Source: Notolepis coatsorum (Eukaryota; Chordata; Actinopteri; Aulopiformes; Paralepididae). Taken from it: DNA of 64,000 bases. Positions 5,650 to 62,862 of the stretch are shown here, in pieces (the stretch's first letter is position 1; every line of letters begins with the position of its first letter). Both the position numbers and the translations under genes were made by a program. The stretch lies in assembly GCA_963971535.1 (NCBI GenBank), contig OZ020585.1:24367272-24431271 (forward strand), written 5' to 3'. Under the pieces are notes generated by a model that was not told the origin of the DNA, did no database searches, and saw only the letters and a list, made by a program, of their open reading frames with translations.

Positions 5650-7416
5650 AGTGAAAACACATATACACGGTATATGTGTTTTTACATCCTTCACTGAAAT
5701 CACTACATCGGACCTATCCTCCATTCTCTCTACAATGAAAACTTCTACCTGCATCCTGGACCCTATCCCCTCCATCCTAGTCAAGGCTTGTCTCCCTGCC
5801 CTTTCTCCCCTAATCACCTCCATCGTAAACACCTCTCTGACCACTGGCCTATTTCCCCCCGCCCTCAAAATTGCTTCCGTCACCCCCTTACTAAAAAAAA
5901 CCCGGTCTCAACCCTGAAACCCTTGATAATTTCCGCCCCATTTCCAACCTCCCCTTCCTCTCAAAAATAATTGAGCGAGCCATTGCCTCCCAATTAAAAT
6001 CCTACCTCGACAACAATAACCTTTATGATACATTTCAATCCGGATTCCGCACCAAACACAGCACCGAAACTGCTCTTCTAAAGGTCACCAACGACATACT
6101 CCTCTCTGCCGACTCTGGTTCCCTCTCCATCCTCATTCTCCTAGACCTCAGCGCTGCTTTTGACACCATCAGTCACCCCATCCTCATCACTCGTCTCCAG
6201 TCCTCCGTTGGCATCTCCGGAATCCCCCTCACCTTGCTCCAATCATACCTCTCTCACAGGCACCAATTCATCTCTATCAACAACTGCAAATCCCCCACTG
6301 CCCCCATCACTCATGGTGTCCCCCAAGGCTCAGTACTTGGTCCCCTGCTCTTCATCCTCTACATCCTTCCACTTGGTCTGATTCTCCGCCAACATGGCCT
6401 GCGTTTTCACTGTTATGCAGACGACACTCAGCTCTACCTCTCCACCAAGACTATCACTCCAGCCACTCTCTCCACCCTCAGCACCTGCCTCACAGACATC
6501 AAAATATGGATGCAAAATAACTTTCTTAAACTAAACTGCAATAAATCAGAAATCATTATTATCGGTCCAAAATCCCTCACCAGCCACACCCAGGATTTCA
6601 CCCTAAACATTGATGGTACCATTGTCACCCCCTCCACTCACGTCCGTAACCTTGGCATCATCCTGGACCCCACCCTTTCTTTCCTCCGCCATGTGAACCA
6701 CATAACCAAATCGGCCTTCTACCACCTCCGGAACATTGCCCGTCTCCGCCCCTCCCTATCACTCTCCGCTGCTGAAACACTGGTTCATGCATTCATATCA
6801 TCACGACTAGATTACTGCAACAGCATCCTCTACGGCTCACCAAACACTATCCTCAATAAACTCCAATATGTCCAAAACTCTGCTGCCCGCATGCTCACCT
6901 CCACCCGTCGCTCTGATCACATCACCCCTGTCCTCCACGACCTCCACTGGCTTCCAATCAAATACAGGATACATTTTAAAATACTACTCATCACATTCAA
7001 AGCCCTCAACAACCTTGCCCCTCCCTACCTGTCTGACCTCCTCCACCGTCACACGCCCACCCGTCGCCTTAGGTCTGCAGATGCCAACCTCCTAACACCT
7101 CCCACGACCAGGCTCCGGACCTGGGGCGACAGGGCCTTCGCTGCTGCTGCCCCCTCCCTCTGGAATGCCCTCCCCAGCCATATCCGTGATGCAAACACCC
7201 TGACATCTTTTAAATCAGCCCTCAAAACTCACCTTTTCAATCTTGCTTTTGACCTCTAATTCTGTCGGTGTTATTTTATTTTATTTTTGTCTTGTATTAT
7301 TTTTGTTCTGTTTTTTTTTTTTTTTTTTTTTTTTTTTTCTTTTTTTGCCATAGTTTGTCTCTTCTGCCCATGTAAAGCGTCTTTGAGCACCTGGAAAAGC
7401 GCTATATAAAATAGAT

Positions 7417-20658: not shown

Positions 20659-21622
20659 ACCCTTTACCGGTCACTTCTTGGAATACCTGGAAATTCACTA
20701 TTTCAACTCTAGAATGTTATTTTGGTGCTATTTCAAAAGTTATCTACAATTTTGAAATTCCTGTAAATTAAGGTTAACCAAAGTGTCCAAGAACAGGTCC
20801 TCGACCGGTACCCTAAAAATGTGGGGCCTATGGGGCATATTTTTCCTTAGGGGGCATATCTATGAAACTTGGCAGGCTGATTCATAACATAAAATAAATA
20901 AGAAAATGTATAGGGAGTTTTCGTTGCGAATTTGCGTTGCCATGGCAACAATGATACTACATGGTACTACAGGGTACTACAGGGTACTACATGGTACTAC
21001 ATGGTACTACATGGTACTACATGGTACTACAGGGTACTACAGGGTACTACATGGTACTACATGGCACTACAGGGTACTACATGGCAATACAGGGTAGTAC
21101 ATGGCAATACATGGTAGTACATGGCAATACAGGGTACTACATGGCACTACATGGTAGAAGTAATACCATCGGGCATATGTCTAAAAATGGACACTATGTC
21201 ACTTCACCTGAAGGTGCATATGACCATTTATGGCTTCACCACTTTTTAGCTAACAGCAAATCCTGATTTCACTAATCCTATGCTAAAAACACCTATCCCA
21301 TCCTTTAAATGATTGTTCAACTGCAAAAATAGTAAATGTTATCAATTTACCATGATTTGTTGAGGAAATAATGGATTTTGAAGAATAGAAGCAGGTGCAA
21401 AAATCTGCATTATTTTGCTGTGGTGAAAAGAAGGAAGTTGCAGATCCCCAGGGTCTATCCTGATTGGTCAGATGGGATGGTGACAATATCTGTGTCATAG
21501 CCTGACCTGTGCTGATTGGCTGGAAGAAGTTTTTTTCATAGATTAAAGTTCCCCCTCTCCCACCTGGCTAATATATTGTATGGGGAAATGGCCAAAAATG
21601 GTTACTTGGCCGGTAAAGGGTT
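20659..21622. mobile_element. MITE inserted in the LINE 3' region
   Basis: Inverted ends aaccctttaccggtcac (left) and ggccggtaaagggtt (right) bound a gene-free ~964-bp segment. It separates the LINE ORF end from its 3' UTR. The target duplication is not clear, so the superfamily is left open. Confidence 0.6.
20951..21155. repeat. 10-bp minisatellite in the MITE
   Basis: About 20 units of tactacatgg/tactacaggg with occasional gcaatac variants. The period of 10 cycles through all three frames, giving three equivalent Tyr/Gly/Trp-rich open frames that are not genes. Confidence 0.95.
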
Positions 21623-24653: not shown

Positions 24654-26088
24654 TGTAACTGAGGGGTACAATTCCCTGACTGTATTACTAGATATGATAC
24701 TTACTACCACTACCTTTGTACTTAATATTCGGCCACCCAGTACATGGCATAAATATATTATGATGAACACTGTCACGTAGATGAAACGGATCCAACACAA
24801 ATGTACGAATTAGAAATAGGTCTTTATTTCTACACAGCGATGGTGTGTAGAGCAAGCACTTAATCAAATCAATCACATTTATGAATGGAAATTAGTATGC
24901 ACTTTTATGGCAAGAGTATTCGTCGTATATCAATAGAGAATGTCCAATCTCTGAAGGCGCAGGTGGTACATATACGACCTGGAATAGTTTAAGGAATAAC
25001 AGCAATGATACTTTAATGATTATATACTGGATACGCTAGGGGGGGTTAATCCGGTCGCTTGTAAGCCGACAGGAGTAGGAAGGGGGGGGGGGGGTAGAAT
25101 CCGGCTGCCTCATCCGGCCAAGGGTATCCCAGGTGAACCCACTGTAGTGCCGTTCAATGCGCCGGCGATCCTTGGACCACAGATGAAAGCAGGTGGACCC
25201 TTTGTGGGCCGGCGTCCTCCGGTCCACGGAGGAGAGACGTGAAGCGACCTCGTCTTGCAGAGCGTCTCCTCACCTTGCGTCCTCTCCAGGGGGGGGGGTT
25301 CCAACACACGGCAGTGTCGGGGGTCTTTATCCATGGAATAATCAACGTACACAAAGCATAATCCGTGCCTGGGAAGGCGGGCTGTCGTCGGTAGAATAAT
25401 CCGGTATACAGGTCCACTCGCTCGTCGGCTCTGGGGCTCCTCGGGTGCAGCTTCACGTGGGGTCAACCACCCTGGATAAGCAGCCAGTTCTCTGCCCGAA
25501 ACGATGGGGTACTGACTACGGTAGTATTCTCACCGTACGAAGCACTATATATTAACAGACTATTATTAGCTTAATAGACTACGTCCAACTCGACGATATA
25601 GTGCCAAATATGACTATTCAAATATTAATATACACGATGTCTCAATACCGATGGTAGGCGAACTTGGCCTTACTCCCACACGTGGCGTCGCGGGGAGGCT
25701 TTACGTCTGTGACTCTATTGGAGGGTAAGAAACTGGACTGAAAAGGAAGTCCTACTTTAGTAGCGCAGTATATATACGCACTATGAACAAATAGTCCCAT
25801 TAGTGGTGCGGTAGTCAGATTCCTACGCGGAACTAGGACTTGTTCGTACATGTGGAGCGGTACGTTTGAACTGGGTCTGAGGGGTATGGCAGCCTGGCAC
25901 CAAGGTCTCGACCAATAGTAGAATGGAGACTATTATGGGATGTTCAGTAGGCTAGAATGGATATTCAATGCATATTGTACAAGGAATATACAAGGGATAT
26001 TAGGGAATATTAGAGAATATACAAATACAATTAAATATATATATATAAATAAATATATATATTCGGTTTAATCTGGCCCTTCACAACA
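24654..26088 (-). repeat. 3' LTR of the BEL/Pao element
   Basis: 1,435 bp. On the minus strand it starts TGTTGTGAAGGG and ends CAGTTACA (TG...CA). Differences from the other LTR include 24746 (t versus c), a one-base deletion near 24925, a change near 25617 (c versus g) and one near 26008 (t versus c). AATAAA on the minus strand (TTTATT at 24823-24828) may be the poly(A) signal. Confidence 0.95.
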
Positions 26089-26099
26089 GCCACCCCCTG
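26089..26099 (-). other. Polypurine tract
   Basis: The minus strand reads agggggtggc immediately 5' of the 3' LTR, the expected place for the primer of plus-strand DNA synthesis. It is short and not purely purine. Confidence 0.6.
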
Positions 26100-26196
26100 A
26101 TTGGTCCCAGACCTAATCAGTTAAACAGAGACAGATTAATCGCGTTGTCTATTTACACATAAGGGTTTGCTGTAGGGGTCAGTCAACTTCACAAAG

Positions 26197-28659
26197 TCAT
26201 AGGGTTATAGGGTCATGGTCATCATCGATTGTGTCTGGGAGTCGGGGCAGTTCTATGAGCCTCGCCACGGGACGGGTGTAAGTGCGACCCTGGACGAGCA
26301 CTTCAGCTGCTCGGACCTTGCCGTCGGCACCGGTGATCACTTTGCTTACGCGGCCGGCCGGCCACATAGCTCTGGGCAGTGATTGATCAATAATCATGAC
26401 GACTGTTCCTTCTGTCAAATTGTCTCTCTGGGCTCGCTGCAGTAGAAGCAATTCTGCTTCCTCGTAGTTAGCTGCTGACATATCAGCGGGGGACTTGCAC
26501 TCCGGGTGGTACCGCAGGAATGTTCTTTGTTGTGCACTCTCTATGGACGTGCAATCGTCTATGTTAGGGTCGGTGGAGGCTACGGTGCTCAATCCACAGA
26601 ACACAGACTTCTTATTTTCCACCTCCTCTGGACTTGCTTCCCTCGGGATAGGCATGGGCCACTGTCCTTCCGGGAGTCTTAGGAATGCGGGGCCGTCACT
26701 GTAGACATTGCGACGGGTGAGGTCATCCAGGGGCATCCCCCGGGTGATGACGTCAGCTGGGTTCTGTTTTGTATCAACGTAGCGCCACTCTGTTTCTCCG
26801 GTTAACTCTTCGGTTAAGTCTTGAATCTCGGTGACTCTGACTCCCACGAAGACTTTGTACTTGCATGAGTCCGATTTGATCCAGGCGAGTACCGTCGTGG
26901 AATCTGACCACAGGATTGTTCTAGACACCGGTATGGTGAGCTCACGTTGGATGAGCGTGGCTAGGTGCGCTCCGGCTAGGGCTGCGCAGAGCTCTAGACG
27001 TGGGATAGATTGTTGCTTGCGTGGGGCTATTCTCGAGCGGGCGAGGACAAATGCTGTGTAGATCTCTCCCCCCTTCTCTTGGGCCCGCAAGTAGGCTACT
27101 GATCCGTATGCGACCTCTGAGGCGTCACTGAAGACGTGTAAGTCCATTTTACATGTCTCTGGCCTCACCGTGGGTGGGAAGTAGCTTCGGCGCATATTAA
27201 CGCCTGGGAGTGAGTGGAGCTCCATCTCCCACTCTCTCCAGGTGGATGCAAGGTGTGCGGGAATGGGGTCATCCCAGCCCTGGTCCTTGTCCCACAATGC
27301 TCGTACAATCATTTTTGCCCTGGTGGTGTACGGTAGAATACATCCTAGCGGGTCATATTGTCGGGCGAGTGTTGTGTACACACTCCGTCTGGTGGTCGGC
27401 GCCGCCGCCGGCCTTCCCTGCTCCGTAGTCAGGGGCTTGTGTCTGTAGTGAAGCGAATCTGTTTTGAATCGCCACACCAATCCCAGGGTCATCTCCTGGG
27501 CTTCTCCCGGGATTGTAGCCATCCAGGTCTCGCTGCTGGCTGCCTTGTCCTCGGAGGAGAGGCTGCGCAGTACTTGCGGATCGCTGCTGGCCCACTGCCT
27601 GAGATCAAAGCCGCCTTTGATCAATGAGGCGCGGAGTTTAATCAGGAGAGCCTCGGCTTCTTCCTGGGTTGAAAGGCTTTGTAGACAGTTGTCTACGTAG
27701 AAGCTGTTCTTTACGCTGTGTCGGACCTCTTCGTCCGCTGCTGGGTCCTCTGCTACATGTTTCTGTAGTGCAAATGTAGCACAGCAGGGGCTGCACGTCG
27801 TTCCGAAGGGGAGGACTTCCCATTGGTAGATGGCTGGGTGCTCATCTCCTGGCTTCTCTCTCCATAGGAACCGTAACAGGGGCTTGTCCGCCTCTACTAG
27901 TCTCACCTGCAGGAACATTCCTTTAATGTCCCCGCTGATGGCCACCCTTTCCTGGCGGAAGCGGAGTAGAACGCCGAGTAGGGAGGGGCCGAGTGTGGGA
28001 CCGGGCAGTAACTCTTTATTCAGATTTTGGGATCCGATCTGGTAGCTGCAGTTAAATACTATGCGGTCTTTACCGTTGTGATGGACCTTGTGGTGAGGCA
28101 CGTACCACGATTCAGTGGTCTGGTCAGCCTCTTTAATGTCCATCTTTGTGACGTGTCCCGCTGTGATGAGCTTCTCAATCTCAGCGCGGTATACACTCTC
28201 TTGGGCGGGGTTCTTGGCTAAGCGCCGCTCCGTGTTCAGCAGGTACCGTTCTGTGGCGTCTGTCTTGGCGTGGAAAGTAGGCATTCCTTCTCGCCGCAGG
28301 AGTGGCGTGGCGTATCTCAACACGCCGTTGACCGGGACTCTCTTGGTCCCTGTCTCGAGGAGGTGAATGGCGTAAATGTCATCTTTAGAACGAATGTCTT
28401 TCTTTCCGTTCTTAAAGGGCATTTGTTCCAAGGTCCATAGCCGCTCTACGTGTTGCAGGAGTGCGGTTTCTCCCTCCGTGACTCGGGAGTGGAGACATCT
28501 AGTGGCTGTACTTCGGTTGAGAGATTTGGCGAGCGGGCCTTGGAGAGTCCATCCCAAACGGGTCTCGACTGCTGCAGGACAGCCTCGGGGTCCGGTATGA
28601 ACCCGGTCCATCGGGACAATGAGGTCTGCATGGTCGGAGCCTATCAACAGGGTCAGCAT
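26197..28659 (-). CDS. pol: BEL/Pao pol: RT-RNase H with C-terminal DUF5641-like tail, no integrase core
   Basis: An 820-codon frame. It opens at the end of the protease region (LLIGSDH). Reverse transcriptase follows, with SGDIKGMFLQ (motif A, Asp near residue 244) and FYVDN near 320-324 (motif C with YVDN instead of YVDD). The Pao-type connection has LARQYDPLG near 432. RNase H has FSDAS near 510, RLELCAAL near 554, SDSTTV near 585 and NPADVITRG near 633. Near residues 740-745 the sequence passes directly from a region that normally precedes integrase (EAELLLLQRAQ) to a DUF5641-like segment (LTEGTVVMIID...RAMWPAGRV). The H2C2 zinc and DDE core expected between them are gone, yet the frame is kept. 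The product would make cDNA but could not integrate it. The first Met is only the first ATG in this frame, since pol is normally fused to gag. Confidence 0.92.
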   Translation of the reverse strand: MLTLLIGSDHADLIVPMDRVHTGPRGCPAAVETRLGWTLQGPLAKSLNRSTATRCLHSRVTEGETALLQHVERLWTLEQMPFKNGKKDIRSKDDIYAIHLLETGTKRVPVNGVLRYATPLLRREGMPTFHAKTDATERYLLNTERRLAKNPAQESVYRAEIEKLITAGHVTKMDIKEADQTTESWYVPHHKVHHNGKDRIVFNCSYQIGSQNLNKELLPGPTLGPSLLGVLLRFRQERVAISGDIKGMFLQVRLVEADKPLLRFLWREKPGDEHPAIYQWEVLPFGTTCSPCCATFALQKHVAEDPAADEEVRHSVKNSFYVDNCLQSLSTQEEAEALLIKLRASLIKGGFDLRQWASSDPQVLRSLSSEDKAASSETWMATIPGEAQEMTLGLVWRFKTDSLHYRHKPLTTEQGRPAAAPTTRRSVYTTLARQYDPLGCILPYTTRAKMIVRALWDKDQGWDDPIPAHLASTWREWEMELHSLPGVNMRRSYFPPTVRPETCKMDLHVFSDASEVAYGSVAYLRAQEKGGEIYTAFVLARSRIAPRKQQSIPRLELCAALAGAHLATLIQRELTIPVSRTILWSDSTTVLAWIKSDSCKYKVFVGVRVTEIQDLTEELTGETEWRYVDTKQNPADVITRGMPLDDLTRRNVYSDGPAFLRLPEGQWPMPIPREASPEEVENKKSVFCGLSTVASTDPNIDDCTSIESAQQRTFLRYHPECKSPADMSAANYEEAELLLLQRAQRDNLTEGTVVMIIDQSLPRAMWPAGRVSKVITGADGKVRAAEVLVQGRTYTRPVARLIELPRLPDTIDDDHDPITL

Positions 28660-31027
28660 TGTCTATGAGCGGGATCGGTAACTTGCGCAGATGTGCATAT
28701 TTCTCCATCAGCTTGGCGACGGGGTATGTGTACCGCGACAGTCCTATTTCTTGGCTGGTGAAAGCGTCTGTAATCTGGTACCGTCGCTCAGGCTGGCCGC
28801 TTGCTGCGATAGAGAATGAGACATTCTCGCCCTTTATCGTCTTCAAATCTCGTCTTATTGTCCGAATTGTCATTTGGGTTTCGCTTCCCCGCAGCCCTAG
28901 CTGGGCCGCAGCGGAGGCGAGCAGCAGGGTCTTCTCTGACCCGTCATCGAGGACGGCGTAAGTGTCCAGGACTTTATTCTGGTAGCTTAGTGTCACACGC
29001 ACTACTTTTAGGAGTACTCGGGCTCCACTGCTGCTGGCGGGATCGATGTACATGACGCTCGCTTTGCTGCTGGATGGTGCGGGTGAAGGGCGCCGTCTGT
29101 TACTGTCGTGAAGTATGTCCAGATGGGCTCCATCGCACTTGGTGCACCTTTTCTTTAAGCGGCATTCGGCTGCCATGTGTGAGCGCGCACAGCGAAAACA
29201 GCGCTTGTTGGACTTTATCCATTGACTTGCTTCCTCCGCGTTCAGCTTGGGGAAGGAGTCACATTGCGCTAGCCAGTGTTCTTTCTCACAGTAGGGGCAC
29301 ACTATCTTCCACTTCTCCGTTCTGGAGGGGGTACTGTGGCTCCTGCTGCTCGGTACTGACTCCGATTGGTGCATCACAGTCACCGATCTTCTTCCATCAT
29401 TTAGTCGTCTGGTTCCTTCTCTGGAGCCAGGGGTGCTCCGTCCGAATGTATCTAGCCGTAGGCTGCTGACTTCTCTCGCCAGGAAGTCTGCTAGATCGAG
29501 GAGGTTCGGTTCGGGGCCATTCGGGTCTCGGTGGTCCCTCTGTCGCCTAAAACGCTCCTGTCGAGCGGGCGGCAGCTTCTCCAAGATCCTTTCCACATTT
29601 GAGTTGGCGTAAAGTTCATGCCTCCCCTTCTCTCTCTGCGCTCCCAACATCCCTACCAGGGACTGCACTCTGATGGACAGGTCGTCCAGTGCTCGATTGT
29701 CTATTGCTGGGGGTAAGCGGTCGATGTGTTGGATCTCCTGGAGCACGTAATCCCATATGCGCCCATACCTCTGGTCCAATGCTACCAGCGCTGCTGTGTA
29801 TGGGGTGGTGGAAGTCGCGTAGGCGAGCGCTATATTATGTGCGCGGGGCACCTTTAAGTGCTTCAGTAGGATGGCGTATTTATGGCGTTCATCCAATACA
29901 TCCACCAACATGGTCTCCAGACACATGCGGAGTTCCGTATACTGGGCCCGGTTCTCTTGGGTGAAGTCGGGTACCATAGGCGGGCCAATGTATGACGCTG
30001 ACTGTGGATACATCGGCGAGCGTTGGGGGAGAGGCCTCCTAGGCGAGTCTCCTCCCGCTCCTTGGTATGGGCTGGTACCGGCAGTGTACCATGGCCCGCT
30101 TGTCCAGGTGCTGTTCCTCGGTGCGGGTCGTGCGTCGTGCTCACCCGTGTATAGAGTCGGGGGTCTGTAGCGCAGCTCCGCGGGAGTATAGCCTGGGCTG
30201 TACCGGACCTCCTGGTCCGGTAGAGTACTGTGCTGTCGTCGGGCGTGGTTCTCCTCCTCTTCCTCTTCGTCTTCAGTTAGGTCATCCAGTGCTTGTAGTC
30301 TCTGGTTTAGCCTCTCCACAGGATATGCTGCTCCTTCCCGGTTGCTAGGTCTCGCTTGGACCGGTGGGGGGAGGTGGTCTGTGGGGGGTATAGACCTCGT
30401 CTGTTGGTCAAGTTCAGGGTTGTTTACTCGGCTAGGGGATGCCGCCCTGGAGGTGTGTCTAGACGAGTTCCTGGAGCCTCTGGCGGAGGGAGAGGGTGTT
30501 GTCCGTCTGATCAGCTGTTCTATTAGTTGCGCTTGCTGTCTGTCGCGCTCTGCGTCCCGTAGAGCACCAGCAGCTGCTCGCTGGCTGTCTGCTCGGTCTC
30601 GGGCCACATTCTCTTCTCTCTGAATGCGTCTTATTTCTAGACGTATATGCTCTTCTTCGCTCCGCTGCTGGATCTGCAGTCGGTCGCGTTCAGCAGCGGC
30701 GTTCAGGCTGATGAGGAAGGCCTGCTGTAGGGTCCTCTCTGCCTCGCTGGGAGACGGCGGTTGTATAGGGGAGCCTTCCCTCGGGGTACTCCTTGCGGAG
30801 CCTTGGAGCTCTATCTCCACGGTGCTCTCCCCGTCTTCTTCCGTGCCGAGTTCTCTCTCGGTAGCGTTGTATTCCTCCCGGGACTCATCGGGGACTACTT
30901 CTTCAGTACTGGCGGGGTGTGAAGTCATGTCTGGTTCCCACTGGTCCCCACCGTGAACTTGGTCAGTTACATTAGAGCCCGTAGGGGCCTCTATGGTCGG
31001 GGTAGTCTGGGCGTTGGGGTTAGACAT
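28499..31027 (-). CDS. gag: BEL/Pao gag with zinc knuckles and aspartic protease
   Basis: An 842-codon frame starting at ATG 31027. Residues 93-170 are Gln/Arg/Glu-rich and look like a coiled coil. 175-340 are Pro/Ser/Arg-rich and disordered. 355-525 match a DUF1759-like gag core in pattern (RMCLETMLVDVLDERHKYAILLKHLK region). Three Cys/His knuckles follow: CPYCEKEHWLAQC (577), CFRCARSHMAAEC (610) and CTKCDGAHLDILH (628). The protease active site is LDDGSEKT near 693-700. From about residue 792 the reading leaves the conserved path and continues out of frame to a stop, while the conserved path is picked up by the pol frame. The role is particle formation, RNA binding and polyprotein cleavage. 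Confidence 0.92.
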   Translation of the reverse strand: MSNPNAQTTPTIEAPTGSNVTDQVHGGDQWEPDMTSHPASTEEVVPDESREEYNATERELGTEEDGESTVEIELQGSARSTPREGSPIQPPSPSEAERTLQQAFLISLNAAAERDRLQIQQRSEEEHIRLEIRRIQREENVARDRADSQRAAAGALRDAERDRQQAQLIEQLIRRTTPSPSARGSRNSSRHTSRAASPSRVNNPELDQQTRSIPPTDHLPPPVQARPSNREGAAYPVERLNQRLQALDDLTEDEEEEEENHARRQHSTLPDQEVRYSPGYTPAELRYRPPTLYTGEHDARPAPRNSTWTSGPWYTAGTSPYQGAGGDSPRRPLPQRSPMYPQSASYIGPPMVPDFTQENRAQYTELRMCLETMLVDVLDERHKYAILLKHLKVPRAHNIALAYATSTTPYTAALVALDQRYGRIWDYVLQEIQHIDRLPPAIDNRALDDLSIRVQSLVGMLGAQREKGRHELYANSNVERILEKLPPARQERFRRQRDHRDPNGPEPNLLDLADFLAREVSSLRLDTFGRSTPGSREGTRRLNDGRRSVTVMHQSESVPSSRSHSTPSRTEKWKIVCPYCEKEHWLAQCDSFPKLNAEEASQWIKSNKRCFRCARSHMAAECRLKKRCTKCDGAHLDILHDSNRRRPSPAPSSSKASVMYIDPASSSGARVLLKVVRVTLSYQNKVLDTYAVLDDGSEKTLLLASAAAQLGLRGSETQMTIRTIRRDLKTIKGENVSFSIAASGQPERRYQITDAFTSQEIGLSRYTYPVAKLMEKYAHLRKLPIPLIDNADPVDRLRPCRPHCPDGPGSYRTPRLSCSSRDPFGMDSPRPARQISQPKYSH

Positions 31028-31220
31028 ACTTTAACTTTCTAGTTTTACCGCGTTTACTGTTAGTAGAAGACTAGGTTGTTGACTGACAGCGTAAGCCTCT
31101 AAGTACTGAGGGAGCCGTCGTTCGCGCTGCGGGCGTTGGTTAGGAGGATCGTTTCGTGGAGTGTTCATCATAGGCCATTTCAATATTAATAACACTATAT
31201 TAATATTACACTAATTACCC
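31028..31220 (-). other. BEL/Pao leader
   Basis: About 190 bp between the primer-binding site and gag, probably including RNA packaging signals. No motif is visible. Confidence 0.6.
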
Positions 31221-31237
31221 TCCGGCTCGAAGGACCA
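31221..31237 (-). promoter_or_regulatory. Primer-binding site for tRNA-Tyr
   Basis: The plus strand reads tccggctcgaaggacca, identical to the 3' end of vertebrate tRNA-Tyr including its CCA as I recall that tRNA. The minus strand is thus a 17-nt primer-binding site starting TGG, two bases from the 5' LTR end. It would prime first-strand cDNA. Confidence 0.88.
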
Positions 31238-31239
31238 AT

Positions 31240-32675
31240 TGTAACTGAGGGGTACAATTCCCTGACTGTATTACTAGATATGATACTTACTACCACTACC
31301 TTTGTACTTAATATTCGGCCACCCAGTACACGGCATAAATATATTATGATGAACACTGTCACGTAGATGAAACGGATCCAACACAAATGTACGAATTAGA
31401 AATAGGTCTTTATTTCTACACAGCGATGGTGTGTAGAGCAAGCACTTAATCAAATCAATCACATTTATGAATGGAAATTAGTATGCACTTTTATGGCAAG
31501 AGTATTCGTCGGTATATCAATAGAGAATGTCCAATCTCTGAAGGCGCAGGTGGTACATATACGACCTGGAATAGTTTAAGGAATAACAGCAATGATACTT
31601 TAATGATTATATACTGGATACGCTAGGGGGGGTTAATCCGGTCGCTTGTAAGCCGACAGGAGTAGGAAGGGGGGGGGGGGTAGAATCCGGCTGCCTCATC
31701 CGGCCAAGGGTATCCCAGGTGAACCCACTGTAGTGCCGTTCAATGCGCCGGCGATCCTTGGACCACAGATGAAAGCAGGTGGACCCTTTGTGGGCCGGCG
31801 TCCTCCGGTCCACGGAGGAGAGACGTGAAGCGACCTCGTCTTGCAGAGCGTCTCCTCACCTTGCGTCCTCTCCAGGGGGGGGGGGTTCCAACACACGGCA
31901 GTGTCGGGGGTCTTTATCCATGGAATAATCAACGTACACAAAGCATAATCCGTGCCTGGGAAGGCGGGCTGTCGTCGGTAGAATAATCCGGTATACAGGT
32001 CCACTCGCTCGTCGGCTCTGGGGCTCCTCGGGTGCAGCTTCACGTGGGGTCAACCACCCTGGATAAGCAGCCAGTTCTCTGCCCGAAACGATGGGGTACT
32101 GACTACGGTAGTATTCTCACCGTACGAAGCACTATATATTAACAGACTATTATTAGCTTAATAGACTACGTCCAACTCGACGATATAGTGCCAAATATGA
32201 CTATTGAAATATTAATATACACGATGTCTCAATACCGATGGTAGGCGAACTTGGCCTTACTCCCACACGTGGCGTCGCGGGGAGGCTTTACGTCTGTGAC
32301 TCTATTGGAGGGTAAGAAACTGGACTGAAAAGGAAGTCCTACTTTAGTAGCGCAGTATATATACGCACTATGAACAAATAGTCCCATTAGTGGTGCGGTA
32401 GTCAGATTCCTACGCGGAACTAGGACTTGTTCGTACATGTGGAGCGGTACGTTTGAACTGGGTCTGAGGGGTATGGCAGCCTGGCACCAAGGTCTCGACC
32501 AATAGTAGAATGGAGACTATTATGGGATGTTCAGTAGGCTAGAATGGATATTCAATGCATATTGTACAAGGAATATACAAGGGATATCAGGGAATATTAG
32601 AGAATATACAAATACAATTAAATATATATATATAAATAAATATATATATTCGGTTTAATCTGGCCCTTCACAACA
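31240..32675 (-). repeat. 5' LTR of the BEL/Pao element
   Basis: 1,436 bp, nearly identical to 24654-26088. A TATA-like gtatatatac lies near 32357-32366 and TTTATT (minus AATAAA) at 31409-31414, so the promoter and poly(A) signal are placed as expected for minus-strand transcription. Confidence 0.95.
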
Positions 32676-44085: not shown

Positions 44086-44435
44086 GTGAGTTGAAACACT
44101 GTATTCCATCGTGAGTTGTAACAATGCATTCCATCGTGAGTTCAAACAATGTATTCCATCGTGAGTTGAAACACTGTATTCCATCGTGAGTTGAAAACCT
44201 GTATTCCATCGTGAGTTGTAACAATGTATTCCATCCATCGTGAGTTGAAAACCTGTATTCCATCGTGAGTTGTAACAATGTATTCCAGCGTGAGTTGTAA
44301 CAATGTATTCCATCGTGAGTTGTAACAATGTATTCCATCGTGAGTTGAAACAGTGTATTCCATCGTGAGTTGTAACAATGTATTTTATTGTGAGTTGTAA
44401 CAATGTATTCCATCGTGAGTTGTAACAATGTATTA
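44086..44435. repeat. 25-bp minisatellite, about 14 copies
   Basis: The unit contains gtattccatcgtgagttg and a 7-base variable part (taacaat/aaacact/aaaacct). One unit carries an extra catc. Overlapping 78-151 codon minus-strand frames are repeat translations. Confidence 0.95.
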
Positions 44436-51332: not shown

Positions 51333-51512
51333 GTTATTATTTGAGTTCCTAATTTATGCAAATGACATGTCGTCAGCTTGTGACTGCAACTTGTTCCTGT
51401 TTACGGACGACTCAGCCCTGCTGGTCTCTGACAAGAACAAGTTACAGGTTGAAAAAACCCTCAGCTCGGAACTAGGCAGAATCTGCATATGGCTCGCTGA
51501 TAACAAACTATC

Positions 51513-54170
51513 TGTTATGGTTTGTAACCGACCCCAATCGCACAACACAAGACAGGTATGGTGGTTTGCCAAGAAACAGATATTTATTGTGAACAGGGAA
51601 AAAGGGCACTGTCCCTTTAAGGGAGAAAACACAAAACACTGGAATAACACAAGAGGGGAAGGTAAAGTGCCTTTAAGAGGCGGGCAAGAGGCGGGCAGGA
51701 AAGGGAACACCTTGGGAAAGTAAGGGAACGCCTAAGGGAAGGTTAAGGGAACGCCTTGGGACAGAGGAACTAGAGACTAGGTAAACCAGGGACAAGGAGA
51801 ACTAGGGAGAGAGGACTAGGAACTAGGAGAGCTAGGGAACAGGAGAAACGGGGACTAGGGGAACTAGGGACAAGGAACTAGGTGGAACTAGTAGGGGAGA
51901 ACTTGGGACCAGGAACTAGGTGGAACTAGAAAGGGGAGAACTAGGGAACAGGAACTAGGTGGAACTAGAAGGGGAGAACTTGGGAACAGAGGGGACTGAG
52001 GCCCGCGGAGGCGGGCTGGGAAACAGGGAGGAACTGGGAGGACTGGTGGAAATCATCTGGGCCGCTCTGCAGGACAGAGGAGATAGTTAATGCACAAAGG
52101 GGGAAAAAACAGAGCAGGTGCAGAACAGTCCAAATAACAAAGTGAACAAAGTAATAATATCTTCGTGTGAAAAACACACAGGGGGAGATGTAAAGTCCAA
52201 AAATACTATTCTAAGTGAGAACCAAAAACAGAGGCATTACGCTGGGAGATGAAATGTCCAAACTAACTAACAGAGGCAATACGCTGGGAGATGAAATGTC
52301 CAAACTAACTAACAGAGGCAATACGCTGGGAGATGAAATGTCCAAACTAACTAACAGAGGCAATACGCTGGGAGAGTGACATCACAATCTAAAACTCAAC
52401 CAGGCGTATGCGTAATGGTACAGGAACAGCAGCGGGAACGGGGGCAAGGGCACTACGCTGAGTGAGTGACATCACAATCAAAACTCACCCAGCGTATGCG
52501 TAAAGGTACAGGGACAGCAACGGGAACGGGGGCAAGGGCACTACGCTGAGTGAGTGACATCACAATCAAAACTCACCCAGCGTATGCGTAAAGGTACAGG
52601 GGCAGCAACGGGAACGGGGGCAAGGGCACTACGCTGAGTGAGTGACATCACAATCAAAACTCACCCAGCGTATGCGTAAAGGTACAGGGGCAGCAGCGGG
52701 AACGAGGGCATCGCCACCGGGTGGCTGGCTGTCCGAGCCGAGGAACAGAGCGCTGGAACAGCGGCGGTGACGAGGGCATCGTCCACCGGGTAGCCGCTGT
52801 CGGAGCCGAGGATCAGAGTGCTGGAACAGTGGCGGTGACGAGGGCATCGTCCACCGGGTAGCCGCTGTCGGAGCCGAGGAACAGAGTGCGCGCCACACCT
52901 TGGTGTGCGCGTCGGAACAGGGAGCTGGAAACAGTGGCGGTGGCGAGGATGTCGTCCACCGGGTAGCCACTGTCGGAGCCGAGGAACAGAGTGCGCGCCA
53001 CACCTTGGTGTGCGCGTCGGAACAGGGAGCTGGAAACAGTGGCGGTGGCGAGGATGTCGTCCACCGGGTAGCCACTGTCGGAGCGAGGAACAGAGTACGC
53101 GCCACACCTTGGTGTGCGCGTCGGGACAGTGGCGGTGGCGAGAGCGTCGTCCACCGGGTAGCCGCTGTCGGAGCCGAGGAACAGAGTGCGCGCCACACCT
53201 TGGTGTGCGCGTCGGGACAGTGGCGGTGGCGAGAGCGTCGTCCACCAGGTAGCCGCTGTCGGAACCGAGAGACGCCTCGGGGTGCGTCTGCGAGGAGGAG
53301 TGTGCCAAGCTCGAAGGGCTGGAAGATGCGCATCTGTGCGCTGGAACGGAGGAGCGTGCCAAGCTCGAGGGTCCGGGAGATGCGCGTCAGTGCGCTGGAA
53401 CGGAGGAGCGTGCCAAGCTCGAGGGTCCGGGAGATGCGCGTCAGTGCGCTGGAACGGAGGAGCGTGCCAAGCTCGAGGGTCCGGGAGATGCGCGTCAGTG
53501 CGCTGGAACGGAGGAGCGTGCCAAGCTCGAGGGTCCGGGAGATGCGCGTTGCGCGCTGGTCTGGAGGAGCGTGCCAAGCTCGAGCGTCCTTGGAAGATGC
53601 GCGTTGCGCGCTGAGGACTGGAGAGCGTCTGCGCTGGTCTGGATGTGCGTCAGGACGAACAGCTGCGCGGGGGTCTGCAGTGGAACGCTGGGGTGCCTCC
53701 CGTGGAAGTACAGGGAGCGCAGACCAGTCTTCCCCACAGGCAACGACGACAGCTGGCGAAGGCTGGAGCAAACATCTTGACGCCGGAGAATGGAACAGCA
53801 TAGGCAGACAGAGGATCTCCCGAAAGAGTCTAGATGTTTAGAGAATATGACTCGGCAAGTATACAACACGACCCCACGCCAAAACGAGGGGAAGCGCCCT
53901 GGTATTTAAAGCCCACAGGGGGACTAATTAGCCTGCCACCACAGGTGCGAGAGATAATAGAATATCAAACAGGTGTGGCCACTAAGGGTAAGGAACGAGA
54001 GGGTGGGGGCTAGAGAGAGTGAGTAGGGAATTCCTAACAGTAGGCTTAAAGAAGACAGAGAATAGGGAATTCCTAACAGTAGGCTTAAAGAAGACAGAGA
54101 ATAGGGAATTCCTAACAGTAGGCTTAAAGAAGACAGAGAAAAGGTAGTGAGCAGCGGGCAAAACCTCACA
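51513..54170 (-). repeat. 3' LTR, minisatellite-packed
   Basis: Left LTR. On the minus strand it begins TGTGAGG and ends CATAACA. A TATA-like TTTAAATA (plus 53903-53910) and AATAAA (plus TTTATT at 51583-51588) would place most of the LTR within R. I noticed two differences from the right LTR, 53097 (a versus g) and 53247 (a versus g). Confidence 0.93.
52236..54140. repeat. Minisatellite blocks inside the left LTR
   Basis: Successive arrays: 42-bp units (52236-52375, ~3), 88-bp units (52376-52690, ~3.5), ~105-bp GC-rich units (52740-53270), 54-bp units (ggagcgtgcc at 53351, 53405, 53459, 53513) and 39-bp units (tagggaattcc at 54024, 54063, 54102). The same arrays recur 3,836 bp to the right. 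Confidence 0.9.
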
Positions 54171-55348
54171 GTATCCCCCCCTCCAACGGGAGCCACCCGG
54201 CGACCCAAAACAAATACAGACAGAGTGGCAGGGGGACAAAACAAGAGGTACTGGCCAAGCCAGCAGGGGAAGCCACCACAAGAGTGGGGCTAGCAAAAGA
54301 AACAGGGTCGCCGAGGGGTAACTAGGGTAGCAGAGGGGCAACTGGGGGAACTGGTCTAGAGGAACTGGGTCTAGAGAACTAGTCTAGAGGAACTGGTCTA
54401 GAGAACTGGTCTAGAGAACTGGTCTAGAGAACTGGGCTAGAGAACCGGGCTAGAGAACTGGTCTAGAGAACTAAGGGGCAAGCAGGGTAGCAAAGGGGTA
54501 ACCATGGAAGCACCGGGAAGGGCTAGCAGAGGGAAGGTTAGCTGCCAGGGCACTGATAGCTACAGGGCCTATGCTAGCTGTACTGCTACATCAACATAGA
54601 GGCTGCGCAAGCTGCCGGAGCCAGGCTAGCAGAGGGAAAGGGTAGCTGCCAGGGCACTGATAGCTACAGGGCCTATGCTAGCTGTACTGCTACATCAACA
54701 TAGAGGCTGCGCTAGCTGCCGGAGCTAGGCTGGCAGACAGGGCTGGACCAGCATGAGAGCACAAGCTAGCTGGAAGGACAGTCCTAGCTGTGTGAGAAAA
54801 ACTACACAAAAAAGTGGAGGCCATGCAGAGGGACCGGGTTAGCTGCTTGGGCCTGGCTAGCTACAGGGCCCATGCCAGCTGCAAGGCTGCATTAACATAG
54901 AGGCTGTGCTAACAGCCGGGGCCAAGCTAGCAGACCGGGGCCATGCAGAGGGAAACTGGGTTAGCCGCCAGGGCATGGCTAGCTACAGGGCCTATGCCAG
55001 CAGCAAGGGCTGCATAAACATAGAGGCTGTGCTAGCAGCCGGGGCTAAGCTAGCAGACAGGGGCTCTGCTGAGGGACTGGGTTAGCTGCCAGGGCATGGC
55101 TAGCTACAGGGGGGTCAAACAGGGCAAAACGGGAAGCAAACAGGGGAGCTAACCGGGGAGACTAACAAGCTAAACAGGGGAGTAACAGGCTAACAAAGGA
55201 GCTAAACAGGACTAACAAGGAAGCTAAACTGGGCTAACAGGGAAGCTAACAGGGCTAACAGGGGAGCTAGAGGGAACAAGAAAAAAAAAGGCAAACTCAA
55301 CATACACAGTCTGTGCTGGCTGGGGTCGTAGACTTGGTGGGGTCGTAC
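54171..55348 (-). other. Internal region of the non-autonomous LTR element
   Basis: No long open frame. It is built of imperfect repeats: ggtctagagaact words (54340-54475), ~100-130-bp units with ctagctacagggcctatgc (54520-55110) and short ggggagctaac words (55130-55270). It may serve packaging or spacing only. Confidence 0.85.
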
Positions 55349-58006
55349 TGTTATGGTTTGTAACCGACCCCAATCGCACAACACAAGACAGGTATGGTGG
55401 TTTGCCAAGAAACAGATATTTATTGTGAACAGGGAAAAAGGGCACTGTCCCTTTAAGGGAGAAAACACAAAACACTGGAATAACACAAGAGGGGAAGGTA
55501 AAGTGCCTTTAAGAGGCGGGCAAGAGGCGGGCAGGAAAGGGAACACCTTGGGAAAGTAAGGGAACGCCTAAGGGAAGGTTAAGGGAACGCCTTGGGACAG
55601 AGGAACTAGAGACTAGGTAAACCAGGGACAAGGAGAACTAGGGAGAGAGGACTAGGAACTAGGAGAGCTAGGGAACAGGAGAAACGGGGACTAGGGGAAC
55701 TAGGGACAAGGAACTAGGTGGAACTAGTAGGGGAGAACTTGGGACCAGGAACTAGGTGGAACTAGAAAGGGGAGAACTAGGGAACAGGAACTAGGTGGAA
55801 CTAGAAGGGGAGAACTTGGGAACAGAGGGGACTGAGGCCCGCGGAGGCGGGCTGGGAAACAGGGAGGAACTGGGAGGACTGGTGGAAATCATCTGGGCCG
55901 CTCTGCAGGACAGAGGAGATAGTTAATGCACAAAGGGGGAAAAAACAGAGCAGGTGCAGAACAGTCCAAATAACAAAGTGAACAAAGTAATAATATCTTC
56001 GTGTGAAAAACACACAGGGGGAGATGTAAAGTCCAAAAATACTATTCTAAGTGAGAACCAAAAACAGAGGCATTACGCTGGGAGATGAAATGTCCAAACT
56101 AACTAACAGAGGCAATACGCTGGGAGATGAAATGTCCAAACTAACTAACAGAGGCAATACGCTGGGAGATGAAATGTCCAAACTAACTAACAGAGGCAAT
56201 ACGCTGGGAGAGTGACATCACAATCTAAAACTCAACCAGGCGTATGCGTAATGGTACAGGAACAGCAGCGGGAACGGGGGCAAGGGCACTACGCTGAGTG
56301 AGTGACATCACAATCAAAACTCACCCAGCGTATGCGTAAAGGTACAGGGACAGCAACGGGAACGGGGGCAAGGGCACTACGCTGAGTGAGTGACATCACA
56401 ATCAAAACTCACCCAGCGTATGCGTAAAGGTACAGGGGCAGCAACGGGAACGGGGGCAAGGGCACTACGCTGAGTGAGTGACATCACAATCAAAACTCAC
56501 CCAGCGTATGCGTAAAGGTACAGGGGCAGCAGCGGGAACGAGGGCATCGCCACCGGGTGGCTGGCTGTCCGAGCCGAGGAACAGAGCGCTGGAACAGCGG
56601 CGGTGACGAGGGCATCGTCCACCGGGTAGCCGCTGTCGGAGCCGAGGATCAGAGTGCTGGAACAGTGGCGGTGACGAGGGCATCGTCCACCGGGTAGCCG
56701 CTGTCGGAGCCGAGGAACAGAGTGCGCGCCACACCTTGGTGTGCGCGTCGGAACAGGGAGCTGGAAACAGTGGCGGTGGCGAGGATGTCGTCCACCGGGT
56801 AGCCACTGTCGGAGCCGAGGAACAGAGTGCGCGCCACACCTTGGTGTGCGCGTCGGAACAGGGAGCTGGAAACAGTGGCGGTGGCGAGGATGTCGTCCAC
56901 CGGGTAGCCACTGTCGGAGCGAGGAACAGAGTGCGCGCCACACCTTGGTGTGCGCGTCGGGACAGTGGCGGTGGCGAGAGCGTCGTCCACCGGGTAGCCG
57001 CTGTCGGAGCCGAGGAACAGAGTGCGCGCCACACCTTGGTGTGCGCGTCGGGACAGTGGCGGTGGCGAGAGCGTCGTCCACCGGGTAGCCGCTGTCGGAA
57101 CCGAGAGACGCCTCGGGGTGCGTCTGCGAGGAGGAGTGTGCCAAGCTCGAAGGGCTGGAAGATGCGCATCTGTGCGCTGGAACGGAGGAGCGTGCCAAGC
57201 TCGAGGGTCCGGGAGATGCGCGTCAGTGCGCTGGAACGGAGGAGCGTGCCAAGCTCGAGGGTCCGGGAGATGCGCGTCAGTGCGCTGGAACGGAGGAGCG
57301 TGCCAAGCTCGAGGGTCCGGGAGATGCGCGTCAGTGCGCTGGAACGGAGGAGCGTGCCAAGCTCGAGGGTCCGGGAGATGCGCGTTGCGCGCTGGTCTGG
57401 AGGAGCGTGCCAAGCTCGAGCGTCCTTGGAAGATGCGCGTTGCGCGCTGAGGACTGGAGAGCGTCTGCGCTGGTCTGGATGTGCGTCAGGACGAACAGCT
57501 GCGCGGGGGTCTGCAGTGGAACGCTGGGGTGCCTCCCGTGGAAGTACAGGGAGCGCAGACCAGTCTTCCCCACAGGCAACGACGACAGCTGGCGAAGGCT
57601 GGAGCAAACATCTTGACGCCGGAGAATGGAACAGCATAGGCAGACAGAGGATCTCCCGAAAGAGTCTAGATGTTTAGAGAATATGACTCGGCAAGTATAC
57701 AACACGACCCCACGCCAAAACGAGGGGAAGCGCCCTGGTATTTAAAGCCCACAGGGGGACTAATTAGCCTGCCACCACAGGTGCGAGAGATAATAGAATA
57801 TCAAACAGGTGTGGCCACTAAGGGTAAGGAACGAGAGGGTGGGGGCTAGAGAGAGTGAGTAGGGAATTCCTAACAGTAGGCTTAAAGAAGACAGAGAATA
57901 GGGAATTCCTAACAGTAGGCTTAAAGAAGACAGAGAATAGGGAATTCCTAACAGTAGGCTTAAAGAAGACAGAGAAAAGGTAGTGAGCAGCGGGCAAAAC
58001 CTCACA
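55349..58006 (-). repeat. 5' LTR, minisatellite-packed
   Basis: Right LTR with the same length as the left copy and the same arrays offset by 3,836 bp. A 390-codon minus-strand frame (56465-57637) is open in both LTRs, but its Arg/Pro/Ser/Thr-rich repeats resemble nothing I know. Confidence 0.93.
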
Positions 58007-58799
58007 CTATCATTACACATGGGCAAAACAGAGTCCATTCTCTTCGGTTCAAATAACAAACTCAGCAAGACCGATGGCTTCTCAGTTACAGTGGGTGACA
58101 ATATTGTCACAAGGAAAGATGAAATTACCTACCTGGGTTCCATCCTAGAGGCTAATCTCTCCTGTGACAAAATGGCATCCAATGTAATAAAAAAAGTCAA
58201 CCAAAAACTCGATTCTTGTACCGGATCTCCTCTCTGGTAAACAAGAATACCCTGAAGACTCTGGCAGGAGCACTCATTCAGGGGTACTACGACACCTCAT
58301 GGTACCAAAGCACCTCAAAGGCGCTAAAAACAAAATTACAAACATCTCAAAACAAACTGGTCAGACTACTGCTTGACCTTACTCCTAGAACCCACCTCAC
58401 CCCTGCCCACTTTGACAACCTAGGATGGCTTAGAGTAGACGACAGAGTACAGCAACTTGCAATGGGCCTGGTCTACAAGATACACTACACGACCAAGGTA
58501 CCCATGTACATGTCAAAATACTTCCCAAAGGTCAGTGAATACCACGATCACAACACCAGAGGGAGCTCCACAAATCACCCAGATTCGGCTCAAATAAGGG
58601 ACTAAACACGTTTTGCAATTATGCCACATCAATGTGGAACGCCCTACCCAAAGCTGTAAAGGAATGTGGATCACTACCCACTTTCAAAACCTCTCTCAAG
58701 GGACACCTACGGGAGACTGCAATTCAAAACTGGCCCCTGTAAATATCCTAACCCAACCCCCTCCAATGTACAGTCATTTACCTAGTATGGTTTTGTCAA

Positions 58800-62577: not shown

Positions 62578-62862
62578 TGTGCAAAATATAAAGACACACA
62601 AAAGAGATGTAGGCTCAATATAAAGACACACAAAGAGATGTAGGCTCAATATAAAGACACACAAAGAGATGTAGGCTCAATATAAAGACACACAAAGAGA
62701 TGTAGGCTCAATATAAAGACACACAAAGAGATGTAGGCTCAATATAAAGACACACAAAGAGATGTAGGCTCAATATAAAGACACACAAAGAGATGTAGGC
62801 TCAATAAAGACACACAAAGAGATGTAGGCTCAATATAAAGACAGCCCCCCCCCCCCCCCCCC
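62578..62862. repeat. 31-bp minisatellite then poly-C
   Basis: About 8 units containing aaagacacacaaagagatg and taggctcaat. One unit lacks two bases. The array ends in a C run at 62846-62862. Confidence 0.95.

Follow-up and report, generated by a model that had tools for sequence, protein, structure and literature searches.

We analysed a 64,000-nt stretch of the Notolepis coatsorum genome (assembly GCA_963971535.1, OZ020585.1:24,367,272–24,431,271; hereafter the window, to which all positions refer), in which an earlier sequence-only reading, the original prediction, had picked out a non-autonomous element with long terminal repeats (LTRs). The element spans 51513–58006 (6,494 bp), of which 5,316 bp (82%) is LTR, and it lies on the minus strand; read in that orientation, it has the anatomy of a standard LTR element (Table 1). 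A base-by-base pairwise comparison of the two LTRs, each 2,658 bp long, revealed two mismatches (53097 A/56933 G and 53247 A/57083 G) and no gaps, with CTATC directly outside both edges, which confirms the LTR lengths and positions, the two substitutions and the LTR share originally given. In the sense direction the LTR opens with TGTGAGG and closes with CATAACA (TG..CA ends). The internal region, as predicted, is repeat-rich and lacks gag and pol: one sense frame contains 19 stops, and the longest stop-free piece in any of the six frames is 74 amino acids (aa). Its sense 5′ start is GTACGACCCCACC and its 3′ end is GGAGGGGGGGATAC, a polypurine tract (PPT) that touches the 3′ LTR.

A family of short, young copies

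The genome (3.42 Gb) was searched for sister copies with the first 600 bp of the window copy, and the 40 best-scoring of 2,365 first-look candidates were kept; 32 of these matches fall in 16 LTR pairs, the window pair included, and 8 are unpaired. With a second query, placed across the PPT and the LTR edge, the best 40 of 1,447 candidates were scored; neither 2,365 nor 1,447 is a copy count. The sample comprised 20 stretches with 15 complete pairs, two solo LTRs (L024 and L026), one partial LTR (L027), and L025 and L028, which are incomplete or rearranged within the fetched stretch and were excluded from the counts. Together with the window copy this gave 16 complete copies, and three of the eight unpaired matches lay outside the sample. 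All 16 have perfect 5-bp target-site duplications, of 16 different sequences, and their LTR pairs differ by 0–5 mismatches each, 37 in all (0–0.19%). LTR lengths range from 2,178 to 2,946 bp, leaving out the 3′ LTR of L018 (nested insertion), and internal regions from 1,054 to 1,317 bp; in four more copies the internal region measures 1,173, 729, 1,087 and 1,024 bp. L024 carries a 5-bp duplication of its own, and L026 sits inside a CA repeat, so that its duplication is weak. Because the complete copies come from the top 40 matches to the window copy, both their youth and their similarity are biased upward. Direct LTR pairs that have TG..CA ends and are flanked by a 5-bp duplication in 16/16 complete copies, a PPT adjoining the 3′ LTR and a primer-binding site (PBS) adjoining the 5′ LTR together identify an LTR retrotransposon.

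The window copy probably interrupts an older sequence. Joining the flanks without the element and with one CTATC yields a single 136-aa open frame through the junction, which matches Pfam RVT_1 over residues 11–105 (E 0.0021; 18.3 bits, under the cut-off of 29.6). The match spans the junction at about residue 60, and neither flank half alone has a reverse-transcriptase match in Pfam. Because it crosses the junction and is absent from either half, the target was likeliest an older copy of a long interspersed nuclear element (LINE). Substitution rates in vertebrates are 2–5 per billion sites per year, which would put the window copy roughly on the order of 0.1–0.2 million years old; the LTR identities of this and the other complete copies bear out the very recent insertion originally proposed.

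The original prediction had allowed for two other origins, an assembly or segmental artefact and a single deleted copy of a longer element. The architecture recurs in fifteen other complete copies, all with 5-bp duplications of their own, and the window element is therefore neither. An artefact would account for the high identity and for nothing else; we rejected it, and consider it extremely improbable, given the distinct duplications in the 16 copies, the solo LTR L024 with its own, and the open empty site in the joined flanks. A broader form of the deletion idea holds that the LTRs come from a full-length coding element of which the short copies are internal-deletion derivatives. Copies with long internal regions would be harder to see in our sample, outside which three of the eight unpaired matches lay, yet 20/20 internal regions measured 0.7–1.3 kb and the short form multiplies itself, and we regard this origin as unlikely.

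Predicted promoter and self-priming signals

The sense LTR carries a TATA box, TTTAAATA, at position 261, the 10-nt sequence GTGGGGTCGT at 294 and a sole AATAAA at 2583. TATA start and GTGGGGTCGT are 33 nt apart in 16/16 copies, and the first base of AATAAA is 76 nt from the LTR end in 15/16 5′ LTRs (L018 has no AATAAA). Because the TATA box sits 33 nt upstream, the RNA is expected to start at GTGGGGTCGT. This sequence is complementary to internal positions 3–12 (55337–55346), and two more wobble pairs, read from the sequence, would lengthen the duplex to 12. The original prediction, which had missed the minus-strand orientation, had seen no obvious PBS; one is present on the minus strand, where complementarity to the LTR begins 2 nt past the LTR border in 16/16 copies.

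When the first 300 internal nt were dinucleotide-shuffled 5,000 times, complementarity of at least 10 nt to the stretch 20–60 nt after the TATA start never arose (0/5,000), and to any part of the LTR it arose ten times. Just 3/1,118 offsets of the real internal region qualify, overlapping and all at its very start, and on the opposite strand the best complementarity is 6 nt. A working definition of self-priming is complementarity of at least 10 bp that begins 0–5 bp after the 5′ LTR, and the paper that gives it ascribes such priming to the Tf1/Sushi elements found in yeast and vertebrates (PMC6317226). The element has this arrangement at the sequence level, with a predicted RNA 5′ end. Priming by tRNA was rejected: TGG, the complement of the tRNA CCA end, is absent from the first 30 nt past the LTR on either strand. 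A second copy of the PBS motif ACGACCCCA stands at 55321–55329, 17 nt deeper into the internal region, and TGGGGTCG is found again close to the end of the LTR, at LTR position 2635.

Table 1. Parts of the element at 51513–58006 and the basis for each (sequences in the sense direction)
Feature	Position	Strand	Basis or remark
Target-site duplication CTATC, one copy	51508–51512		Identical to 58007–58011
3′ LTR (element orientation), 2,658 bp, TGTGAGG..CATAACA	51513–54170	−	2/2,658 mismatches to the other LTR
Internal region, 1,178 bp, non-coding, repeat-rich	54171–55348	−	Stops, open reading frame scan, size in sister copies
PPT GGAGGGGGGGATAC, adjoins 3′ LTR	54171–54184	−	16/16 copies (L017: one G fewer)
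PBS GTACGACCCCAC	55337–55348	−	All 12 nt identical in 16/16 copies
5′ LTR (element orientation), 2,658 bp	55349–58006	−	LTR comparison
TATA box TTTAAATA, 5′ LTR	57739–57746 (3′ LTR 53903–53910)	−	16/16 copies
Predicted RNA 5′ end and self-primer GTGGGGTCGT, 5′ LTR	57704–57713 (3′ LTR 53868–53877)	−	RNA start inferred
Poly(A) signal AATAAA, 5′ LTR	55419–55424 (3′ LTR 51583–51588)	−	15/16 5′ LTRs
Predicted R region of 5′ LTR, about 2.3 kb, mostly minisatellite	55400–57713	−	Both ends inferred
Target-site duplication CTATC, other copy	58007–58011		Identical to 51508–51512

A predicted giant minisatellite R region

The TATA box, the self-primer and AATAAA place the predicted borders such that U3 would measure 293 bp, R about 2.3 kb and U5 about 50 bp. 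The LTRs had been described as minisatellite-built, and Tandem Repeats Finder arrays (periods 12–105) do cover 67% of the window LTR; every one except the first lies downstream of the predicted RNA start, and arrays also fill much of the internal region. Across the 16 copies, tandem arrays make up 57–70% of each 5′ LTR. The 5′ LTR has 16 different lengths in the 16 copies, and the two LTRs of a copy are equally long in 11/16; within-copy differences at tandem arrays amount to 299 bp (L014), 90 bp (L016) and 45 bp (L022), and L011 differs by 1 bp. Because LTR lengths differ both within and among copies, the arrays change after insertion and between lineages. The remaining unequal pair, L018, owes its difference to a nested insertion. 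Its 1.37-kb excess, which has no match to the 5′ LTRs or internal regions of the 16 copies at E 1e-10, was rejected as array growth and is not counted among the array changes. By eye, this piece of the L018 3′ LTR is LINE-like, with a TCTTA-repeat tail, and inserted later.

The G+C-rich arrays contain long open reading frames (ORFs) on both strands. One alternative reading is that the LTR minisatellite codes for a repetitive protein of benefit to the element. The window copy has a 390-aa ORF from 76 nt past the predicted RNA start, and the longest sense ORF starts at 76 nt in four copies, the window copy among them, and at 102 nt in five. Against this, the two starts are in different frames, four copies have their longest sense ORF only from 519–757 nt downstream, and 3/16 have no ORF of at least 80 aa with an ATG; none of the array periods 88, 91 and 68 is divisible by three, and the two window ORFs tested gave nothing above cut-off in Pfam. 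A conserved R-encoded protein was rejected on these grounds of variable position and frame and of the Pfam result, and a protein-coding role is very unlikely. Small-RNA parts were sought as well. Rfam at gathering score gave no matches over 51401–58150 and ARAGORN no genes in the window, thresholds below which decayed remnants could fall. A retrozyme or a small-RNA-derived miniature of the Cassandra, Helenus or Ajax kind was rejected, as no hammerhead ribozyme, tRNA or 5S rRNA was found at the thresholds used.

Exchange of blocks between copies

Informative sites in different segments of the element group the copies differently. In the U5 segment, 17/17 sites give one split, with the window copy, L009 and L010 on one side and the other 13 copies on the other, and in the segment of U3 and the start of R (U3/R), 15/24 sites group L009 with L011, L017 and L021. 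Between these two segments all four combinations are present, and four-gamete counts put 374/408 site pairs in conflict; conflicts number 0/136 within U5, 27/276 within U3/R and 14/48 between U3/R and the PPT-side segment. Because the sites are linked and all 17 U5 sites carry one split, the 374 conflicts amount to one clear exchange, that of L009, with hints of others. Template switching between copackaged RNAs would be the simplest cause, with conversion between genomic copies as an alternative. Towards its end the INT5 segment aligns poorly, and its counts (153/153 with U5, 171/216 with U3/R, 13/36 within the segment and 4/18 with the PPT side) were not used as evidence.

Other features of the window

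A second young LTR element occupies 24654–32675 on the minus strand, with LTRs of about 1.44 kb that are 99.6% alike and a 5-bp duplication, CACGT; its Pao peptidase A17 and reverse-transcriptase domains mark it as a BEL/Pao element. At 5895–7259, a 454-aa open frame matches Pfam RVT_1 (E 7.3e-34, profile positions 3–203 of 205) and is probably part of a LINE. Minisatellites with 10–40-bp units lie at 836–1184, 20951–21156, 44086–44434 and 62585–62843, and the window also has long CA, CT and TAT tracts in other places.

Discussion

Taken together, these data point to a minus-strand LTR retrotransposon that is young and non-autonomous, that most likely primes in the manner of the Tf1/sushi elements of Ty3/Gypsy and that is mobilised in trans, a reading that we consider probable. 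Transcription by RNA polymerase II would begin some 33 nt downstream of the TATA start and produce an RNA with the 2.3-kb minisatellite R at both ends. The first 10–12 nt of this RNA would fold back to pair with the PBS and, once cleaved, serve as the primer for the first strand. An autonomous element, a partner suggested by the anatomy, would supply gag, protease, reverse transcriptase and integrase in trans, and occasional template switching between copackaged element RNAs would swap blocks between copies.

Several points weigh against this model. The RNA start, the poly(A) site and transcription itself are all predictions, and because a 2.3-kb R sets the AATAAA of the 5′ LTR far downstream of the promoter, premature polyadenylation would be expected. 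No autonomous relative was seen among the sampled copies, in which all 20 internal regions are short. The evidence for exchange comes down to one clear case, L009, rather than many independent ones, and U5 and the PPT-side segment show no conflict (0/34 site pairs). The element is non-coding, and its assignment to Tf1/sushi, which we regard as likely, runs through priming and end motifs in place of a protein phylogeny. The end motifs, moreover, are mixed: LTRs of Sushi are given as TGTYANR / CNTNACA and those of the rGmr1 clade of fish as TGTNANR / CGTNACA (PMC3601003, Table 3), and in our element the 3′ CATAACA fits Sushi, with the 5′ TGTGAGG one position off.

These motifs bear on a further alternative, in which another Gypsy clade, for example rGmr1, mobilises the element and self-priming arose separately. 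The 5′ TGTGAGG suits the rGmr1 motif better than that of Sushi, but the 3′ CATAACA misfits it (PMC3601003), and self-priming is reported for Tf1/Sushi (PMC6317226); we think it improbable that a different clade is the partner. The original prediction went further and suggested an uncharacterised class of parasite. That claim exceeds the evidence, in that the priming resembles Tf1/sushi, whereas its emphasis on an unusual build holds, the giant minisatellite R being the element's unusual part. Among the open-access papers in the matches listed, no title or opening of an abstract describes an LTR element of such build, which does not prove that none has been described. It is conceivable, if rather doubtful, that the family embodies a distinct parasite design, an LTR counterpart of SVA, in which every LTR forms a full transcription unit of promoter, 2.3-kb minisatellite and poly(A) signal. 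The R repeats would then be retained for their benefit, serving as a large template-switch or packaging zone through which the family reshuffles blocks in the course of its own copying.

The family shows that multiplication is possible for an LTR element of which roughly four fifths is LTR, most of that minisatellite, and suggests that a gene-less element can keep self-priming. It lends itself naturally to studies of the minimal requirements of an LTR element, and raises two questions: by what means the RNA would get past the AATAAA that the 5′ LTR carries 2.3 kb from the RNA start, and whether the tandem repeats of R favour exchange when RNAs are packaged together. The element also spreads minisatellites through the genome.

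Among known systems, large retrotransposon derivatives (LARDs) are kilobase-scale non-autonomous LTR elements with a conserved internal region of several kilobases. Our element shares the scale and the lack of autonomy, but its internal region of about 1.2 kb (1,054–1,317 bp in 16 copies) is shorter than one LTR. Terminal-repeat retrotransposons in miniature (TRIMs) are gene-less, with the order LTR–PBS–PPT–LTR, are thought to be mobilised in trans and are shorter than 1,000 bp (PMC10886601). The element has the same gene-less build as TRIMs and SMARTs (PMC10886601), unlike them in measuring 6,494 bp, 82% of it LTR. The original view that it fits neither TRIM nor LARD thus stands, the whole being too big for the one and the internal region too short for the other. 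SVA and LAVA elements are not known to have an LTR pair, which our element has. As an analogy only, they are also non-autonomous, contain a variable-number tandem repeat and are mobilised in trans, as proposed here, but through LINE-1, on which they depend (PMC7353768). Very long LTRs are found in Retrosat2 of rice, where they exceed 3.2 kb and are called not frequent by the authors, in a plant element that has coding ORFs (PMC3485330). The closest likeness is to the Tf1/sushi group of Ty3/Gypsy chromoviruses, which have a PBS that matches the LTR by complementarity rather than a tRNA (PMC6317226), TG..CA ends and an AATAAA close to the LTR end, a reported Sushi feature (PMC3601003). For the Sushi LTR model, the training length is given as 572 (PMC3601003). 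From that group our element differs in having no gag or pol and in its LTRs of 2.2–2.9 kb, of which about 2.3 kb in the window copy is predicted minisatellite R.

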